Shown one piece after another: positions 3,012 to 19,310 of a DNA stretch of 64,000 nt. The DNA lies in assembly GCF_900111195.1 (NCBI RefSeq), contig NZ_FOGL01000022.1, forward strand, positions 1-64,000. The letters run 5' to 3'. The stretch comes from Gracilibacillus ureilyticus. Its GTDB lineage: Bacteria; Bacillota; Bacilli; Bacillales; Amphibacillaceae. The position numbers and the translations under genes are program-made. Position 1 is the stretch's first letter. Each line of letters begins with the position of its first letter. A model generated the notes under the pieces. The model worked only from the letters and a program-made list of their open reading frames with translations, was not told the origin of the DNA and did no database searches.

Positions 3012-3998
3012 TTAATATTTAAATAGCATGGCAATCATTTCGTGGCCGGCACCGATTGTCCAGAATAGTACAGTATCTCCCCGCTTGATCTGGCCGGATT
3101 TTATTCCTTCATAAAGACAGATGAGTGGGCTGCTTGTTGTGGTGTATCCGTATTTGTCCCCAACATAAATGATCTTTTCCCAATTCATATCAAAATGATT
3201 CTGGATTTTTTTAATGTTGGATAATGCAAATTGAGAAAAACAGAAGGAATCGACATCATGAATAGTTAATCCGTTTCTCTCCAGCAATTCCTCTATCATT
3301 TCACACGCGACTGGAATAGCCATGGCACCATCGAATGGAAGGAAATCAATGTAGTCCTCTATGCCTCTTGATTGGGAGAACCCTTTCGGAGGATAGACAA
3401 TGTTATCTTTATTGCTCGAATCCACTTCATAAATAGAGTCAATAAATCCAGTGTTTTCTTCTTCTGTCTTCACCAGAATAACGGCTGCCGCAGCATCGGC
3501 GAAGTTAGCATATGTAATTTCCTGTTCTGGGTTTGCGATTAAACTGTTCGCATCTGATCCAATAACAAGTGCTGTATTTAGTTGATCGTTTGTCATCATA
3601 TACCGTGCAGCTGTATCAATGGAAGCAGTCATTCCCGCACAGCATGCATTTGTATCAAGGATCATTGTACGGTTATGGGCACCGATCGCATTATGTACAT
3701 ACATGGCATTGGTAGGTAACGTTTTTTCGGGAACTTGTGTGGAAAATAGAATCATGTCAATATCTTTCCCGGTTAGTTCTGCCTGTTTTAATACTCTTTC
3801 AGCAGCTTCAATTCCCATTGTTAACGTATTTTCTTTGTCATTATCGATAATATAACGTTCGTCTCTTCCCATCACTTCAAGAAAATGCCGAATGTCTTTA
3901 CCCTGCTTTTCAAAATGCTTGTAATAGAAATCGTTTGTTACGACATTATCTGGGTGATAAACCGCAACTTCTTTAATCTGGATGTTGTTCTTTTCCAT
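3012..3998 (-). CDS. KAS III-like (FabH-fold) protein with substituted His and Asn
   Basis: 328 residues with the thiolase fold of 3-oxoacyl-ACP synthase III. The nucleophile Cys is kept (Cys120 in NACCAG). Aligning the C-terminal third to E. coli FabH without gaps puts Ser255 (FSQFALSNI) where FabH has the catalytic His of PHQANLRI, and Tyr285 (YGYTTTSS) where FabH has the Asn of HGNTSAAS. The triad is therefore Cys-Ser-Tyr. Decarboxylating condensation normally needs the His and Asn, so acyl transfer or another role is more likely (inference). The start has AAAGGAGAAAGAG upstream. It follows a STAS-like gene on the same strand, with a terminator between them. Confidence 0.85.
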   Translation of the reverse strand: MEKNNIQIKEVAVYHPDNVVTNDFYYKHFEKQGKDIRHFLEVMGRDERYIIDNDKENTLTMGIEAAERVLKQAELTGKDIDMILFSTQVPEKTLPTNAMYVHNAIGAHNRTMILDTNACCAGMTASIDTAARYMMTNDQLNTALVIGSDANSLIANPEQEITYANFADAAAAVILVKTEEENTGFIDSIYEVDSSNKDNIVYPPKGFSQSRGIEDYIDFLPFDGAMAIPVACEMIEELLERNGLTIHDVDSFCFSQFALSNIKKIQNHFDMNWEKIIYVGDKYGYTTTSSPLICLYEGIKSGQIKRGDTVLFWTIGAGHEMIAMLFKY

Positions 3999-4050
3999 GT
4001 TTCTCTTTCTCCTTTTTCTTCTCAGAAATTTCTCTGTTAATAATAAAATG

Positions 4051-4077
4051 AAGAGCCACTCAGCAAGAATGGCTCTT
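4051..4077 (-). terminator. Rho-independent terminator after the STAS-like gene
   Basis: AAGAGCCA / TGGCTCTT stem with an 11-base loop, followed on the minus strand by a T-rich run. It lies between the STAS-like gene and the KAS III-like gene, so the latter needs its own promoter or partial read-through. Confidence 0.75.
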
Positions 4078-4089
4078 ATTCTCTATAGA

Positions 4090-4440
4090 TTAAGATGCAG
4101 CTTCTGTTACTTCTGATATTGCCTGAAGGCCTGCATTTCTTGATATTCTGGTTAATTGCATTTTTAAAATATTATTCTCTTTAATCATATAGGTGATCTT
4201 TTTAAAGCCTGTGTTTTTATACATTTTCATTACTTCTTCCAAATTTGCACCCATCTCTGGTGTTAGGACTTTCATCTCGGTACAATCTACCATTAGTTCA
4301 AATTCCTCGCCATTTATCGGACCAATTTTAGCGTTATATTCCTTAACAAACAGCTCCGCATCTTCCATAGTCATTTTCCCCGCTACGGCCATATTGACTA
4401 CTTTTTTTGATGGATCTACTAAAATTGTGGTTTTACTCAT
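4090..4440 (-). CDS. STAS-like domain protein (SpoIIAA-like fold)
   Basis: 116 residues with the alternating beta-alpha pattern of STAS/SpoIIAA-like proteins: a first strand near VNMAVAGKM, a central strand FELMVDCTEM near residues 47-56, a helix NLEEVMKMY and a strand FKKITYMI. There is no enzyme motif. The start follows AAAGGAG. It is upstream of the KAS III-like gene and could be its partner, but that is inferred only from the neighbourhood. Confidence 0.65.
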   Translation of the reverse strand: MSKTTILVDPSKKVVNMAVAGKMTMEDAELFVKEYNAKIGPINGEEFELMVDCTEMKVLTPEMGANLEEVMKMYKNTGFKKITYMIKENNILKMQLTRISRNAGLQAISEVTEAAS

Positions 4441-4838
4441 TTTCTTATTTTCTCCTTTTATGTATGATTATATAGACCTAAATCATTATACCATACGTTT
4501 TATATTTTGGGATAAAAAATGTCGAAAAAATGAATAAAAAGTAGTTTTATTTTCCCTTAATAGGTATAAAGGCACATTTTTTGAGGGGTCAGTCTATTTT
4601 TATATCTGGATTCTAACATTTCTGTCAAAAGAATAATAAAGTTATTCATCATCACTAAAAGCAGTGGGGAGGCCTTGTTTGAAGAATAAGTCGGGTTTGA
4701 TCATCAAAGGAGGTAGTGAAATACTCGGGTTTGAAGAATAAGTCAAATAGCCGGACGGTTCAATGAAGAATACATCCGGCGTGCTTTTCTGTCCATCAAC
4801 TGAGGCAATTTTTTCTAAAAAATCGAGCAGATTAATGG

Positions 4839-5936
4839 TTATTGATATGCTTTCATACTTTTACGGTAGTAAATTATTATCCGGAGAAAATGATACAGCC
4901 AGAATAATAATCCCGCCAGTAACAGTGTTCGGGTAATCCCTGATAAGCTCCAGGAGATGAAGGGCTCCTCATAATCGAGGGTGTTGGCGTACAGTGCAAT
5001 AGATGAGATCAGGATAATATAGATGCTCATACTAATATTCATTTTAAAAGCCCGTTTTATTGATTGTTTTTGTTCTTTCATATCATATGAAAATTGCGGA
5101 ATAGGCTCATTCTCCCTATATGGCATTGCCCAAATCGAGTAATTTAACACTGTGACATTTGAAGAATATTTCAATTGCCATCCGACTTCTTTATGTGCAG
5201 AAAAAAAGGATGGCTGCACTTTGTATTCAAAAACACATTCATATTTTATTGTGGTGGGCGCTGTCTTCCGAAAAGTAAAGAGTGTTGCTGTTACTTTTTC
5301 AAGTACATAACCTTCCAATGCCAGCTGTTCCAGCCACTTGCTGGTTTCCTCGAGACGATACATCCATCCTGGCTTTAGTTTCCACACTTTTTTTCCATTG
5401 GATACTGGATCAATTGTTGCATCCATCTCAAGGACTTCAAATCGCCGGTAGGATTTGAAAATGTAAGCAGCAATACAGGCAAGTGCTATCGCTTCACCGA
5501 GAAATAACAATAAAAGCCAGATATTTTGCTGATCCATGAATGATAAAATAATGAAGCTGATCAGCAAAATTGGCATCTGCAAGGCAAGCTGGAATATTAC
5601 TATAGCTACAGCTGTATATGCATGCGTACGATTCCGCTTCAAGATAGAGTCTCTAGGTGGATATATTTGAATAATTTCAGTTACATTAGAAACGAATAAC
5701 CACTTTCCTGCAGATGCAGCGATATTCCATCCTTCATTTTTAAGAGTTTCAGGTAAAGTTTTGGCATATTGTATCCGGTAATGGATCTTCTTTTTCTCAC
5801 CTTTTTCAAAAGTAAATACTCTTGACCACAGATTAACATCAGTGACATGCCAGCCTTGTTCTGCCATGATGGAGAGCCATTGTTCGGTCTTGTTGATCTG
5901 ATAACTCCAAAATAATCTTGCTTTTTTTATGATCAT
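4839..5936 (-). CDS. DUF2812 domain membrane protein
   Basis: 365 residues. Two DUF2812-like blocks (EQWLSIMAEQGWHVTDV near residues 18-35 and SKWLEQLALEGYVLEKV near 200-216) alternate with four hydrophobic segments at about 105-130, 138-160, 300-320 and 330-355. Its ATG overlaps the stop of the upstream PadR gene by four bases, a translationally coupled pair. In Firmicutes such genes are usual PadR targets. The molecular role is unknown. Confidence 0.85.
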   Translation of the reverse strand: MIIKKARLFWSYQINKTEQWLSIMAEQGWHVTDVNLWSRVFTFEKGEKKKIHYRIQYAKTLPETLKNEGWNIAASAGKWLFVSNVTEIIQIYPPRDSILKRNRTHAYTAVAIVIFQLALQMPILLISFIILSFMDQQNIWLLLLFLGEAIALACIAAYIFKSYRRFEVLEMDATIDPVSNGKKVWKLKPGWMYRLEETSKWLEQLALEGYVLEKVTATLFTFRKTAPTTIKYECVFEYKVQPSFFSAHKEVGWQLKYSSNVTVLNYSIWAMPYRENEPIPQFSYDMKEQKQSIKRAFKMNISMSIYIILISSIALYANTLDYEEPFISWSLSGITRTLLLAGLLFWLYHFLRIIIYYRKSMKAYQ

Positions 5937-6256
5937 TTGAAATCCTCCTCGTAACGTAAGACATTGGCATGAACTTCTTTTAATCGTTCCATTTCCACCT
6001 GGATTAACTGTTTTCCCAACTGGGTAATTTCATAAATGGTTTTTCTTTTTTCATCTGCATAAATGGTGATAACTTGATCCCTTTGCATTTTCGTCAAGGT
6101 TCCATAAATAGTTCCAGAACCTACCTTTACTCTGCCATTTGTCATTTCCTCTACACGTTTGATGATGCCATATCCGTGTCTTGGTTCTGTTAATGACAAT
6201 AAGATGTAGAAAGCAGTTTCTGTCATTGGCACATATTTTTTTATCACTTTTTTCAA
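5933..6256 (-). CDS. PadR family transcriptional repressor
   Basis: 107 residues with the PadR winged helix: TETAFYILLSLTEPRHGYGIIKRV, then the recognition region VGSGTIYGTLTKM, and a C-terminal helix for dimerisation. Translation starts at TTG (6256-6254) nine bases after AGGAG. It is first in a two-gene operon with the DUF2812 protein. Two TATGTC-type dyads lie just upstream, which fits autorepression. Confidence 0.9.
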   Translation of the reverse strand: MKKVIKKYVPMTETAFYILLSLTEPRHGYGIIKRVEEMTNGRVKVGSGTIYGTLTKMQRDQVITIYADEKRKTIYEITQLGKQLIQVEMERLKEVHANVLRYEEDFK

Positions 6257-8695: not shown

Positions 8696-8722
8696 ACGTG
8701 AAACTTCAGATAGCATATGATG
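8696..8722 (+). promoter_or_regulatory. Possible sigma-K promoter of the appendage-like genes
   Basis: CATATGATG at 8714-8722 matches the sigma-K -10 CATAnnnTA in all but the last base, with AC at 8696-8697 near the right -35 distance. It lies 33 bases before the ATG at 8756. Confidence 0.4.
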
Positions 8723-8755
8723 ACAATATGGACAAATGCTAAAGGAAGAACTGTG

Positions 8756-9601
8756 ATGAAAGAGAATTCTCGGCAACACTGTGTAAAGGTGCTAAAACTA
8801 TATGACTGGATTAATAAAGTCAGCGGCATCCAATTAAAAAAACCGATCAATAATCAAAAGCTTGTGACAGATAAAATATGCGGGAACTTTTCCGTTTCAT
8901 GCGAGAATAATCAACAGTTATGGTCAGTAAAAGGAAAACTATCTGTTTCCGGTTCTGTGACGGTATATCATCAAATCGGTTCTGATCAGCTCGACGTTAT
9001 CGTCAATGGGGTAACTGTGGCGAAGGTAGGAAAAGGCGAAGAGATCGCTCTCGATTTTTAAAGTTTAAAGTCGCTTGAGCTCCGTTGCAGTGGACGGAGG
9101 AACAAAACATGCAAAGGGAAATACTGTATTAGCATTTTTTATACATTATCAAAATTTAATCCAAAGTATTGTCATTTATTTTGCTTTTTATCTGATAAGG
9201 ATGGTAATCCGGCAGAAACACTGTTATGTGAAGAAGTCAGTCAACGATCGGGAAGAACCACTGTAGAAATGGTGCACCAGAATGGGGAAAAAGTTACACT
9301 GCAAAAGGTGACTGTTTCTAAAAAGGGATATATTACGGTACAAATATGGCAGAAAGGGAAACTTTGTAAGATTGGTACAATCCCGTTTCAACTGGTGGAA
9401 GAATTAATCCTTTGTGCTCCTACTGGAACGCATATCGAATGTGAGGTTACTGATTTCATGTGTTCAGCAGAAATAACGAAGGATTGTATCAATATAGAAA
9501 TTCGAGTTTGTCAGCAGGTAAAAGCAGTGGCAGAGGCGATAATAGAAGTGGAAGCTGATTTATGTCAGCCTCGTTCTTTTACTGAATCAAAACTTATCTA
9601 G
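8756..9601 (+). pseudogene. DUF3992/Ena-like spore appendage protein with an in-frame TAA
   Basis: ATG at 8756 follows AAGGAAG. The frame reads 101 residues to a TAA at 9059-9061, then continues open without another stop to 9601. The first part has CVKVLKLYDW, then the DUF3992-like core DKICGNF and VSGSVTVYH. The expected end of that domain appears only after the TAA, as GKYCISIFYTL, matching GKYCLTLHYQT in the neighbour at 9691. About 140 further residues follow, Cys-rich at the end (CAPTG, DFMCSAE, VCQQV, ADLCQPR). This is either a nonsense-mutated gene or a read-through/recoding case. The downstream frame shows no other damage. Confidence 0.65.
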
Positions 9602-9690: not shown

Positions 9691-10017
9691 ATGTGTGGAG
9701 GAGGATGTTGCCCGGATCGTCCGTTTGTTAGTGACGAAATTTGCGGGAATTTCAATACAACAGAAGCGGCGGTACCATTAACCGTTTATACAAAAGAAGC
9801 GACTGTGTTTGTATCAGGGACAGTAAGTGTTTTTTATGATCGTGGTACAGATGCTACGATCACTGCGACAGTGACGGATAGTGCAGGAGTTACCACAGCG
9901 CTTACGATTCCACAGGGAAATACGATTTCACAAACTTTTGATGATATTGCTTCATTATCCATTGATACAGCAGCTGCTACCGGTAAGTACTGTTTAACTT
10001 TGCATTATCAGACTTAA
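9691..10017 (+). CDS. S-Ena-type endospore appendage subunit (DUF3992-like)
   Basis: 108 residues. The N-terminus has CC followed by ten residues and another Cys (CCPDRPFVSDEIC), matching the CC-X10-12-C connector described for Ena subunits as I recall it. In Ena fibres these Cys residues cross-link neighbouring subunits by disulfides. The core is beta-rich and ends GKYCLTLHYQT: ICGNFNT, VFVSGTVSVFYDRG, ITATVTDS. GAAAGGAG precedes the ATG. It is probably made in the mother cell and assembled on the spore. The sequence is short, so a search is needed to confirm the family. Confidence 0.65.
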   Translation: MCGGGCCPDRPFVSDEICGNFNTTEAAVPLTVYTKEATVFVSGTVSVFYDRGTDATITATVTDSAGVTTALTIPQGNTISQTFDDIASLSIDTAAATGKYCLTLHYQT

Positions 10018-10102: not shown

Positions 10103-10573
10103 ATGGGAAATTGCTGTTGTGGCACCTCATCTTCTTTTTCCCAGAACCAGTTTTTCTCAACCCAGACAGAAGGATCAATAAATATCCCGTTTGGCGTCAA
10201 TATGGAAACAACGGTTTTGACACTTCCCGTCACGACAACCTTTGACTTGCAAAATGTAAAACTGGATTATGCAGTACAGCTTGCATTTTCACTTGCGGCT
10301 GGCAATCCGCAATATGATTACGGAGTGAGAGCCCGATTAAGAAGGGATGGAATTCTGTTAGTGACACAAACTCTGCAGCAAAGCGGATCAAGACCTGGCG
10401 GAGCGGGAGCGAGTGTGAGGCGGGAGCATATTCCTAATACATGGGCAGATGATGAGGCACTGGCAGGTGCACAAACATATACCGTGACACTGGAATTTTT
10501 TCAGCGTGCCAATGCCAATACTACTTTAGCAGCAGAAACCCGTTCCTTAAATGCAATCATGTTTGGATTATAA
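10103..10573 (+). CDS. Cys-led beta-sandwich protein of the appendage-like cluster
   Basis: 156 residues from the ATG at 10103, which follows AGGGGGAATT; the in-frame ATG at 10070 lacks this. The N-terminus is MGNCCCGTSSS, a Cys cluster like that of the neighbouring subunit. The rest alternates strands (TTVLTLPVTTTFDL, LDYAVQLAFSLA, YGVRARLRRDG, TYTVTLEFFQRA), compatible with a jelly-roll or C1q/BclA-like fold. Position after two DUF3992-like genes suggests a tip, anchor or decorating subunit, which is inference. I do not recognise the family by sequence. Confidence 0.6.
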   Translation: MGNCCCGTSSSFSQNQFFSTQTEGSINIPFGVNMETTVLTLPVTTTFDLQNVKLDYAVQLAFSLAAGNPQYDYGVRARLRRDGILLVTQTLQQSGSRPGGAGASVRREHIPNTWADDEALAGAQTYTVTLEFFQRANANTTLAAETRSLNAIMFGL

Positions 10574-10805
10574 CAGAAAGCAGGATATCCTGTTCATGAT
10601 ATTGGGACAATCCCCCATCCAGGCTATAGTTCACTATCATAATTCCTCTTTGAAAGGTTAATAATATTTTTAAATAAGCTTTCCATGAGCTTCATTTTGA
10701 CTTATTTCCATCATTCCCATATAATAGATGGTCTGTGATTTAAACGTAAATACTAAATAACTTAATGATAGAGGTTATGTGGAATTAAAACTTAGGAGGA
10801 ATGTA

Positions 10806-15488: not shown

Positions 15489-17855
15489 ATGGGACAGGAA
15501 AAGAAAGCTGCATTACAAAAAGTTGTCACTCAACTCAAGCGGAAAGGATACTGCATTGATTATGCCAAATCTTTTGTCAATAGGAGGAGTATTTATATGA
15601 ATTCTAACCATTTCCCCTCATCGCAAAAACCACTCAAAGTAATTAAGCTCGTCGGTTATTCTGATTTAAACAAGGACAATGATTACAGTGTTGCCAAACG
15701 GCCATGCATGAAGCAGTGGCAGGATCTGGACAAACCAGGCTTAACAGAGCAGGAAGCTGACCAATGGCTCAAGCAGTCTGGATGGACCGGTTTTGTCATC
15801 CCTGATGGCTATATTGTGATCGACATTGATGAAAAAAAGGAAGGGAAGGCAATATTTGACGCACTGCTTTCCGCAAATTTTCAGTTCCATGCAATCAAAA
15901 CAGTTAGAGGATATCAGTTCTTTTTCAGATCGACAGGAAAAGTGACCGGCCAGGATGCGAAAGTGCTCATGGCAGGTGGCTTTATTGGTGATTACCGACT
16001 TGCCGGGAAAGGGCAGGTCGTTCTGCCAAGCGTGAATACAGAAGGGCGCGAGTGGGTCCATCTCGCTGAAAAGGAATTAGATGAAATGCCTGTCTTTTTT
16101 GAAAAATTAAAGAAGCTGACAGATGAACGTCCATTTCCGATCCCTGTTGTAGAGGGCACGCGCAATAATACGATATACAGCCATTGCTGCCGGTTGATTG
16201 AGTACGGATATGCCAAGAAAGAAGTCACCTATATTTGCAGTTTTCTGAACCGGTTTTTTTGCACCCCGCCAATGAATCACAAGGAATTGACCAATACATT
16301 AAAAAGCGCGCTCCATTTCCAGCCATCAGGCACCAATTATCAGGTACAGCCCGCAGCAATGGAACAGCCGAAAAAATTTAACCGGACAGAAATGGGCAAT
16401 GCGGAACGTCTCGTTCACCGCAATGGAAAGGATTTAAAATATTGTGTCGAATTTGATGGCTGGCTTATTTGGGATGGAAAGACATGGGGCGAAGATAAAC
16501 GGAAAAAAGTCGAGCGGATTGCGATTCAAACATTTCGTGAAATGTATGGCGAGGTGCAGCAATTAACCGATACTGATGAGCGGAAAGATTTATGGAGATG
16601 GGCACAGTCAAGTGAGAGAAGCTCAGTTTTTCTTAACAGTATTGCAAGAGCGGAGGCCATGCTGCCAGTTAATCAGGCAGAGTTAAATAAGGATAGCTTC
16701 AAACTGAACTGCGAAAATGGTGTCGTTGACCTTAGGACAGGGGAGCTGCTTGAACATCAGCGCGACTATTTGATGACAAAAAATACCCACATCCCCTATG
16801 ATCCGGAGGCAGAATGTCCGAATTGGCTGGCTTTTCTTCATAGTATTTTCAAAGATTCCAATGGACGGGTAATGGTGGAACTGATTGAATTCATCCAGCG
16901 CTCTGTCGGCTATGCACTAACAGGGGACACGAGTGAACAGGTTGCCTTTTTTCTCTGGGGAACAGGCAGAAACGGAAAAAGTACCTTAATGAATACAATC
17001 AAGCAGCTTTTGGGAGATTACGGCAAGCAGACGAATGCTGATACGTTTACTACAAGAAATAATGAAGGTGGTGCGAACAATGATATAGCAAGGCTTCACG
17101 GGTCGCGCCTCGTGTCAACGGTAGAATCAGATGATGGGCAGAAATTATCAGAGGCCTTAATCAAACAGCTGACAGGCGGAGAACCGGTCACTGCACGTTT
17201 TTTGCGCAAGGAATTTTTCGAATATGTGCCGGAATTCAAGATCTTTTTCACAACCAACCATAAACCGATCGTAAAAGGTGATGATGAAGGGATCTGGCGA
17301 AGGATCCGCTTAATTCCGTTCGATTATACGATCCCAAAAGAGGAAGTGGACAAGCATCTCCCGGAAAAACTGCAGCGAGAATTGCCAGGTATTTTGAAAT
17401 GGGCAGTGGACGGCTGTCTGGCATGGCAAAAAGAAGGACTCGGTGAACCGGATGAAGTGAAACATGCGACAGATGAATACAAAGAAGAGATGGATTTGTT
17501 ATCGAGTTTTATTGAGGAATGCTGTGTGATGCATGGAGATGCGAAAGTTTTAGCGAATACGCTCCATCAGGAATATATGGAATGGGCAGAGAAGAATGGA
17601 GAATATCCGATTAGAAAGCGTCCATTTAATAAACGGATGGTGATGAAAGGATTCCATAAAAGAAAATCCACAGGCAATAAGACTTACTTTTTCGGAATCG
17701 AGTTAGCAAAAACAAGTTACCAAATTACCGAAAATGACCAAAAAAGTGGTAAACCGCCACATAGAGAAATATATGAGGGGAATAGGGAAAACCGATCACT
17801 TTTAGTAACGAATGGGCAGAAAGGTAACTCTGGATTAATCGAGGAGGAGTTTTAA
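15489..17855 (+). CDS. Phage/plasmid primase-helicase (prim-pol plus D5/P4-type helicase)
   Basis: 752 residues from the ATG at 15597 (strong GGAGGAG), or 788 from 15489, which also has AAAGGAGG, so the true start is open. Using the 752 numbering: a prim-pol-like domain with VIDIDEKK near residue 73, then a primase C-terminal segment, a D5_N-like region, and an SF3 helicase with Walker A GTGRNGKST near 456, sensor IFFTTNHKP and arginine finger WRRIRLIPF. It would prime and unwind DNA at a replicon origin. The usual prim-pol His appears as Gln in VRGYQFFF. No integrase or capsid gene lies nearby. Confidence 0.88.
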   Translation: MGQEKKAALQKVVTQLKRKGYCIDYAKSFVNRRSIYMNSNHFPSSQKPLKVIKLVGYSDLNKDNDYSVAKRPCMKQWQDLDKPGLTEQEADQWLKQSGWTGFVIPDGYIVIDIDEKKEGKAIFDALLSANFQFHAIKTVRGYQFFFRSTGKVTGQDAKVLMAGGFIGDYRLAGKGQVVLPSVNTEGREWVHLAEKELDEMPVFFEKLKKLTDERPFPIPVVEGTRNNTIYSHCCRLIEYGYAKKEVTYICSFLNRFFCTPPMNHKELTNTLKSALHFQPSGTNYQVQPAAMEQPKKFNRTEMGNAERLVHRNGKDLKYCVEFDGWLIWDGKTWGEDKRKKVERIAIQTFREMYGEVQQLTDTDERKDLWRWAQSSERSSVFLNSIARAEAMLPVNQAELNKDSFKLNCENGVVDLRTGELLEHQRDYLMTKNTHIPYDPEAECPNWLAFLHSIFKDSNGRVMVELIEFIQRSVGYALTGDTSEQVAFFLWGTGRNGKSTLMNTIKQLLGDYGKQTNADTFTTRNNEGGANNDIARLHGSRLVSTVESDDGQKLSEALIKQLTGGEPVTARFLRKEFFEYVPEFKIFFTTNHKPIVKGDDEGIWRRIRLIPFDYTIPKEEVDKHLPEKLQRELPGILKWAVDGCLAWQKEGLGEPDEVKHATDEYKEEMDLLSSFIEECCVMHGDAKVLANTLHQEYMEWAEKNGEYPIRKRPFNKRMVMKGFHKRKSTGNKTYFFGIELAKTSYQITENDQKSGKPPHREIYEGNRENRSLLVTNGQKGNSGLIEEEF

Positions 17856-18353: not shown

Positions 18354-18836
18354 ATGTCAAATAATGATTCAGATTCTTTTCGTGATATGAATGGCAAAGA
18401 AAAAATAGTAACAGTGCTGGCGATTGCGCTTTTGATTATCTTTGCAGTCGGTTTTGTCATCGGACTGTACTTTTTCGGAATCGCCGGAGTGTTTCAACTG
18501 CTCGGAGTCCAATATACTTCGATTTGGGCCCTGGTCATTTTTGTTGTAAGTTACTTCCTGTTAGGCATCATCGCGGAATTATTTTTCAAAGTTTTCTATA
18601 AATTAACTGTAAGAAAAATAACAGGAAAAGCACAGCGATTCTTTATCCGCATAGGTTTCGAAAGCACATCTAACTGGCTCGTCCTGTTCACCGTCGATGA
18701 GTTTATGAACAGTATCACCATCTCGTTCCAAACCGAGCTGATAATCGCACTACTGCTCGGAGTGCTGGAGTGTGTGCTAGATAAGGAAGATGATAAGAAA
18801 GAGATGGAGAAGATGGAAGGGTATGCTGATCAATGA
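18354..18836 (+). CDS. yrvL: YrvL family regulatory protein
   Basis: 160 residues. N-terminal DSFRDMNGKEKI leads into TM segments at about 20-42, 52-78 and 125-140. This N-terminal signature and the transmembrane pattern match YrvL, which in B. subtilis acts on SigX-dependent unsaturated-lipid and lta stress responses (family knowledge). GAAGGAG precedes the ATG. The acidic C-terminal tail (KEDDKKEMEKMEG) runs up to the minisatellite. Confidence 0.75.
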   Translation: MSNNDSDSFRDMNGKEKIVTVLAIALLIIFAVGFVIGLYFFGIAGVFQLLGVQYTSIWALVIFVVSYFLLGIIAELFFKVFYKLTVRKITGKAQRFFIRIGFESTSNWLVLFTVDEFMNSITISFQTELIIALLLGVLECVLDKEDDKKEMEKMEGYADQ

Positions 18837-18870
18837 GGATCAGCAAGCTGGATGAATGAGAGGATGGAAA

Positions 18871-19310
18871 GTTGCAAGATGAGAGCAGAAGTTGCAAGTA
18901 AGAGGCGAAAGTTGCAAGAAGGGAGCGGAAATTGCAAGTAAGAGGGAAAAGTTGCAAGAAGAGAGCAGAAGTTGCAAGTAAGAAGGAAAAGTTGCAAGAA
19001 GAGAGCAGAAGTTGCAAGAAGAGAGCAGAAGTTGCAAGTAAGAAGCGAAAGTTGCAAGAAGAGAGCAGAAGTTGCAAGTAAGAAGCGAAAGTTGCAAGAA
19101 GAGAGGGAAAGTTGCAAGATGAGAGCAGAAATTGCAAGTAAGAGGGAAAAGTTGCAAGATGAGAGCAGAAGTTGCAAGTAAGAGGCGAAAGTTGCAAGAA
19201 GGGAGCGGAAATTGCAAGTAAGAAGGGAAAGGTGCAAAAAGAGAGCAGAAGTTGCAAATAAGAGGGAAAAGTTGCAAAAAGAGAGCAGAAGTTGCAAATA
19301 AGAATTGGAA
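18871..19310. repeat. 20-bp minisatellite, 22 units
   Basis: Twenty-two contiguous 20-base units, phase exact over 440 bases. Consensus GTTGCAAG followed by 12 purine-rich bases. Two main variants alternate (AAGAGAGCAGAA and TAAGARGCGAAA), giving a partial 40-bp higher-order pattern. The last units drift to GTTGCAAA. Because 20 is not a multiple of three, all three minus frames stay open and give repetitive Leu/Ser/Cys peptides, which I regard as artefacts. Confidence 0.95.

Follow-up and report, generated by a model that had tools for sequence, protein, structure and literature searches.

An Ena domain within a BMQ_0737-type spore-coat protein, interrupted by an in-frame stop codon in Gracilibacillus ureilyticus: a candidate anchor for Ena fibres

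Introduction

The attachment of Ena fibres has been described for two types of Ena in the Bacillus cereus group: ExsL, a CotZ joined to a DUF3992 domain, tethers L-ENA, and rings of Ena1C tether S-ENA, the coat receptor of Ena1C being unidentified (PMC12921279). BMQ_0737 is described as an outermost-layer protein (PMC4656864). A literature search, with most subscription papers outside its scope, returned no paper joining BMQ_0737 with Ena.

Here we describe a gene of Gracilibacillus ureilyticus in which these two kinds of protein appear to be combined. The gene lies in a stretch of 64,000 nucleotides (contig NZ_FOGL01000022.1 of assembly GCF_900111195.1; hereafter, the window) and is interrupted by a stop codon, for which an initial annotation, made from the sequence alone, had offered three explanations: a very recent mutation, a sequencing error or programmed read-through.

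Results

Reading frame of the window gene

Translation of the frame at 8756-9601 (+) gave 101 codons, a TAA (9059-9061), 179 sense codons and a terminal TAG (9599-9601), so that the single internal stop previously reported for this frame was confirmed. The pre-stop part of the gene (101 codons plus TAA) occupies positions 8756-9061 (+) and the post-stop part (179 open codons plus TAG) positions 9062-9601 (+). A likely ribosome-binding site, AAAGGAAG, recognised by eye, is located at 8741-8748 (+), 7 bases 5' of the ATG at 8756, and an inferred sigma-K-like promoter (AC-N16-CATATGATG) at 8696-8722 (+).

The openness of the post-stop stretch is not due to chance. An order-1 Markov null predicts 11.7 stops over its 179 codons, none of 20000 simulated sequences was open, and each of the other five frames over this stretch contains 6 to 13 stops. 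By codon usage, the post-stop frame (0.09) scores close to the pre-stop frame (0.10), whereas the other five range from -0.31 to -0.61; the first 90 bases past the TAA, scored separately, gave -0.19.

Domain composition

The Pfam profile PF13157 (Enas) runs across the TAA, matching positions 8843-9145 (+) with 76.7 bits and one TAA inside the match. Taken separately, the pre-stop piece aligns with profile positions 6-76 of 112 and passes the cut-off of 22 with 46.2 bits, while the post-stop piece aligns with positions 85-111 and, at 16.1 bits, stays under it. The end of the Ena domain is therefore located past the stop, as had been claimed initially; a complete PF13157 domain in one frame is found in the neighbouring gene (9691-10017) and not in the window gene.

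The same annotation had described further open residues with a Cys-rich tail past the end of this domain. The openness stands, but the tail is not an extension of an Ena subunit: about 28 of the 179 post-stop codons complete the Ena domain, and the remainder is mostly a separate domain, that of the spore-coat protein BMQ_0737 (NF052457). The post-stop piece passes the cut-off of this family (71) with 113.4 bits, residues 37-172 of its 179 covering profile positions 42-176 of 199, which places a BMQ_0737 morphogenetic spore-coat domain at 9170-9580 (+; 113 bits). The NF052457 profile is not matched continuously over the gene, as the N-terminal part (residues 9-57) reaches only 18.3 bits, well under 71, and the Ena domain lies in between. 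This weak match falls on an N-terminal HCVKVLKLYDWI motif (8777-8812, +) common to BMQ_0737 proteins; it is of the C-x-V-x-K-x-YDW type, stands also at the start of those proteins, and its D and W are invariant across 24 aligned relatives. All nine columns invariant in these 24 relatives, checked by eye, are kept by the window gene. The order YDW motif, Ena domain, coat domain is present in a full-length profile match with one TAA, and the gene departs from 28 of the 31 full-length hybrids listed below in lacking a single open frame. Judged by these profile matches, the Ena domain is placed within a BMQ_0737-type coat protein, between the YDW motif and the remainder of the coat domain.

Profile A2 matches a solved chain, 9t3p (171 aa, E 1.9e-5), which we take to be Ena1C. 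A search of solved structures with the tail returned one match (E 0.47), taken as chance, and a single-sequence AlphaFold2 model of the tail (mean pLDDT 38) was left unused.

Two genes follow on the same strand. The first (9691-10017, +) is an intact, stand-alone Ena of 108 aa, a putative fibre subunit, which matches positions 2-111 of 112 of PF13157 with 98.2 bits. The second (10103-10573, +) encodes a 156-aa protein with a Cys-rich N-terminus, for which no family was found; a similar gene occupies the same place in another genome of the genus, G005. Further along the window, a 788-aa protein (15489-17855) resembles by eye a primase-helicase of phage or plasmid type, so that a mobile element may follow the Ena cluster. 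In overlapping repetitive ORFs at 18715-19297 (-), LLATSALFLQL-like units recur, which points to a short tandem repeat.

Distribution of the hybrid genes

Searches for the hybrid covered 397 genomes from the order and 159 from the family, with up to five candidates scored per genome, so that all counts are lower bounds. At least 31 full-length hybrid places were found, 27 in the order search and 4 more in the family search; among those listed, all of Bacillales, 28 are uninterrupted and 3 contain stops (the window, G509 and G452). Both G509 (L165, 6193-7095) and G452 (L102) are genomes of the order; in G509 the coat domain of the interrupted hybrid and a following Ena domain share one 300-aa frame. 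The alignment comprised 24 of the 28 uninterrupted hybrids, all of which match both PF13157 and NF052457 at E values up to 0.01, a threshold other than the curated cut-offs; in the four outside it (L146, L162, L163 and L164) both domains are present by custom profiles. In a class-wide search (398 genomes, E 1e-20) full-length matches were listed in three genomes, all previously found, and four genomes outside the order matched the coat domain only. G005, of the same genus and syntenic, has one uninterrupted frame of 280 aa followed by the same two genes. On this evidence from profile searches, the Ena-in-BMQ_0737 architecture is considered real and widespread in Bacillales.

Three records of small mobilizable plasmids of Priestia megaterium also matched the hybrid. 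The two that were opened, NZ_CP071483.1 (L234) and NZ_CP069406.1 (L235), are 8.9 and 12.2 kb in size and carry one hybrid and one stand-alone Ena each, with no annotation beyond "S-Ena type endospore appendage". Both plasmid hybrids pass PF13157; with NF052457 one of them scores 91.3, while the other, at 48.0, stays below the cut-off of 71.

Association with stand-alone Ena genes and with a promoter motif

A stand-alone Ena ORF was found within about 6 kb at 24 of the 31 hybrid loci (the other seven having none nearby, with flanks shorter at some contig ends), compared with 0 of 25 plain BMQ_0737 loci as entered, or 1 of 26 once L044 is added; this count is biased toward the hybrid side, since the Ena profile was partly trained on Ena genes beside hybrids, and the plain controls were hand-picked from the same listings, many from few genera. 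Ten Ena ORFs were compared with Pfam and every one passed; eight of these came from hybrid loci and had weak first scores or short length. Several hybrid loci also contain a plain BMQ_0737 gene. The added control, L044 (G011:C7), encodes a 681-aa BMQ_0737 protein (3941-5986), in which a second YDW motif and repeated domains were noticed by eye, and its Ena ORF (10166-10594) is about 4 kb away.

The pattern AC-N16/17-CATANNNT[AG], which we take to be a sigma-K-like promoter consensus and whose final base was relaxed after the copy in the window, precedes 14 of 27 hybrid genes, where simulation predicts 0.59. For the strict -10 element CATANNNTA, 15 of the 27 upstream stretches contain it, against 3.7 expected, the window gene not being among them. 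These counts omit L150, L164 and two interrupted loci, L165 and L166, and rely on mechanically assigned gene starts except in the window. Sigma-K is argued to be a likely regulator of ena genes (PMC12921279).

Age of the stop codon

The codon at 9059-9061, for which a comparison with relatives had been proposed, is a sense codon in all 24 aligned hybrids, the nearest uninterrupted relative being 42% identical to the window hybrid; many different residues occupy this column, and a stop is found in none. Among columns with conservation in 75% or more of the relatives, the window gene keeps 12 of 13 before the stop and 31 of 33 after it, while the uninterrupted hybrid of G005, treated by leave-one-out, keeps 8 of 12 and 23 of 31. 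The end branch of the window gene has a length of 0.70 in the pre-stop tree (rank 18 of 25) and 0.56 in the post-stop tree (rank 13 of 25); one of these rough trees puts it next to G005, the other next to G325 and G514. No sign of decay was seen after the stop, in agreement with the early description of the tail as undamaged.

About 5.5% of the single changes possible in the frame (138 of 2520) create a stop. Assuming an indel rate of one tenth of substitutions, about 130 lesions are expected per unit of neutral divergence, and the presence of a single lesion suggests that neutral divergence after the break is below roughly 2-3%, a bound that is only rough because there is no close relative. 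Given the conserved tail, and since no aligned relative has this stop, the very recent mutation among the explanations first offered fits best, and a young nonsense mutation is the best reading of the TAA.

Alternative explanations of the stop codon

The strongest competitor is an error of sequencing or assembly, in which the TAA is a wrong base call and the strain has an open hybrid. It is made plausible by the gene-like character and normal constraint of both sides of the TAA. Against it, the stop is unaccompanied by a change of frame, adjacent genes are undamaged, the assembly has a rated completeness of 99.99% and a contamination of 0.11%, and its G/C run lengths, unlike those of G001, are normal; a single wrong base would still be compatible with all of this. 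We regard such an error as unlikely, though it deserves to be kept in mind.

Considerably less probable is that the two pieces work apart, one as a short Ena-like protein and the other as a coat domain with a start of its own. The pre-stop piece does still match Enas (46.2 bits), and in G001 the two domains are in separate, overlapping frames, but the sequence of G001 is doubtful and the pre-stop piece lacks the end of the profile. Moreover, the first in-frame ATG past the TAA, at 9269, lies well inside the coat domain, which begins at about 9170, and the start candidates before it are ATT and CTG. Nor does the syntenic relative G005 have separate genes starting past the stop, an arrangement that had been named as evidence against an interrupted gene; its frame is single.

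Read-through, in which a fraction of the ribosomes would continue past the TAA to yield a short and a long protein, was in its programmed form among the initial suggestions; programmed or tolerated, it finds little room in these data. In its favour, the tail shows no signs of relaxed constraint, and misreading of UAA by a glutamine tRNA has been recorded in E. coli; yet read-through is reported least at UAA, with the strongest signal at UAAU and not UAAA (PMC5289835). TAA is also the main stop here (33 of 50 mechanically called ORFs of at least 150 aa with a stop, 12 of them TAAA), the stop is absent at this variable column from all 24 uninterrupted relatives, and no RNA structure was detected downstream of it (z 0.67 over 120 nt). 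No suppressor tRNA, that is, no stop anticodon, occurs among the 33 tRNA genes found, a set that is incomplete in this draft, in which no 16S was found either. From the short product, the final quarter to third of the Ena profile would be missing, and with it the conserved GKYC region. According to PMC12921279, the C-terminal Cys142 is needed in Ena1C; a cysteine of the window protein presumably corresponds to it. We consider read-through very improbable. Frameshifting around TTTTTAAA, a site noticed by eye, does not reach the tail, because each of the other two frames meets a stop after a few codons. The tail could be translated by some other route.

Loss of the hybrid within the genus

Among 17 genomes from the genus, five contain PF13157; each of these five has a hybrid locus or its remnant, and G005 is the only one with an uninterrupted hybrid. 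In G011 a TGA is present in the tail, with decay further on; G010 has a change of frame and has lost the tail, and its genome has no other PF13157 match; G001 has frame changes both in the hybrid and in a stand-alone Ena.

The G001 locus L047 (G001:C84:123000-139000; also L021 and L030) contains 22 G/C runs of at least 7 bases in 16 kb, and its runs of four to six bases are few; ten other loci of the genus have one such long run or none. The long runs of G001 look as if short ones had been lengthened, by an artefact or an odd mutation process, and this genome was discounted since the pattern appears artefactual. Phase variation at poly-G/C tracts, suggested by G001, was rejected: its runs of 7-8 bases are spread throughout 22.7 kb, with runs of four scarce, which is likely an artefact, and the window has no run of 7 or more.

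With G001 excluded, three of four hybrids are broken, and no two of them at the same place. The pattern is consistent with a repeated loss of the fibre system, of which the window gene would naturally be an early stage.

Discussion

The reading we favour, and hold to be rather probable on the basis of domain content and gene neighbourhood, is that the window gene encodes a two-domain spore-surface protein hit by a young nonsense mutation, and that the hybrid anchors or nucleates an Ena fibre. Since the tail proved to be a known coat-protein domain, the likely role of the product shifts from fibre subunit to fibre anchor, and the most likely function of the hybrid is to anchor or nucleate, embedded in the coat, the fibre of the neighbouring Ena. 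The coat domain would, late in sporulation, incorporate the hybrid in the outermost coat or the exosporium, where the displayed Ena domain would template and covalently catch the first subunits of the fibre formed by the 108-aa Ena. In the window, the nonsense mutation would end the Ena domain short of its last strands and remove the coat domain, and the anchor should be lost. Spores with an intact fibre gene and no anchor would be bald or would shed unanchored fibres. The anchoring function, its loss and this phenotype are deduced by analogy, and the loss applies to the strain only if the stop is real, in which case it would represent a natural loss of the anchor.

The TAA itself is ordinary and of little general interest; the interesting part is the hybrid family, apparently a widespread and undescribed class of fibre-anchor proteins. 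With an Ena domain joined to a known outer-coat domain, and with Ena genes usually nearby, the hybrid is a ready candidate for the anchor in other spore formers. More tentatively, the hybrids may constitute a third, undescribed class of ENA anchors beside Ena1C and ExsL, widespread and present also on mobilizable plasmids together with a stand-alone Ena; lineages such as this genus would then repeatedly knock this anchor out, and the strain would be a natural anchor-null shedding free fibres.

Comparison with known systems

The closest parallel is ExsL, the L-ENA tether of the B. cereus group, in which DUF3992 is likewise joined to a protein of the outer spore layer to serve as a tether (PMC12921279). 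The carrier differs: in ExsL it is CotZ with a C-terminal Ena domain, and in the hybrids it is BMQ_0737, into which the Ena domain is inserted. Ena1C, the anchor ring of S-ENA, is similarly a protein of the Ena fold which anchors and forms no fibres itself, according to the same paper; it has a 33-residue N-terminal linker, no coat domain and a coat receptor still to be identified, whereas the hybrid carries a coat domain of its own. BMQ_0737 of Priestia (Bacillus) megaterium (NF052457) has the same C-terminal domain and N-terminal YDW motif, but plain members of this family lack the Ena domain, and an Ena gene was near only one of 26 plain loci. Finally, F-Anchor of F-ENA also places a fibre-like domain on a spore-surface carrier (PMC11952670), although with different domains, namely DUF4183, a collagen-like stalk and an exosporium leader.
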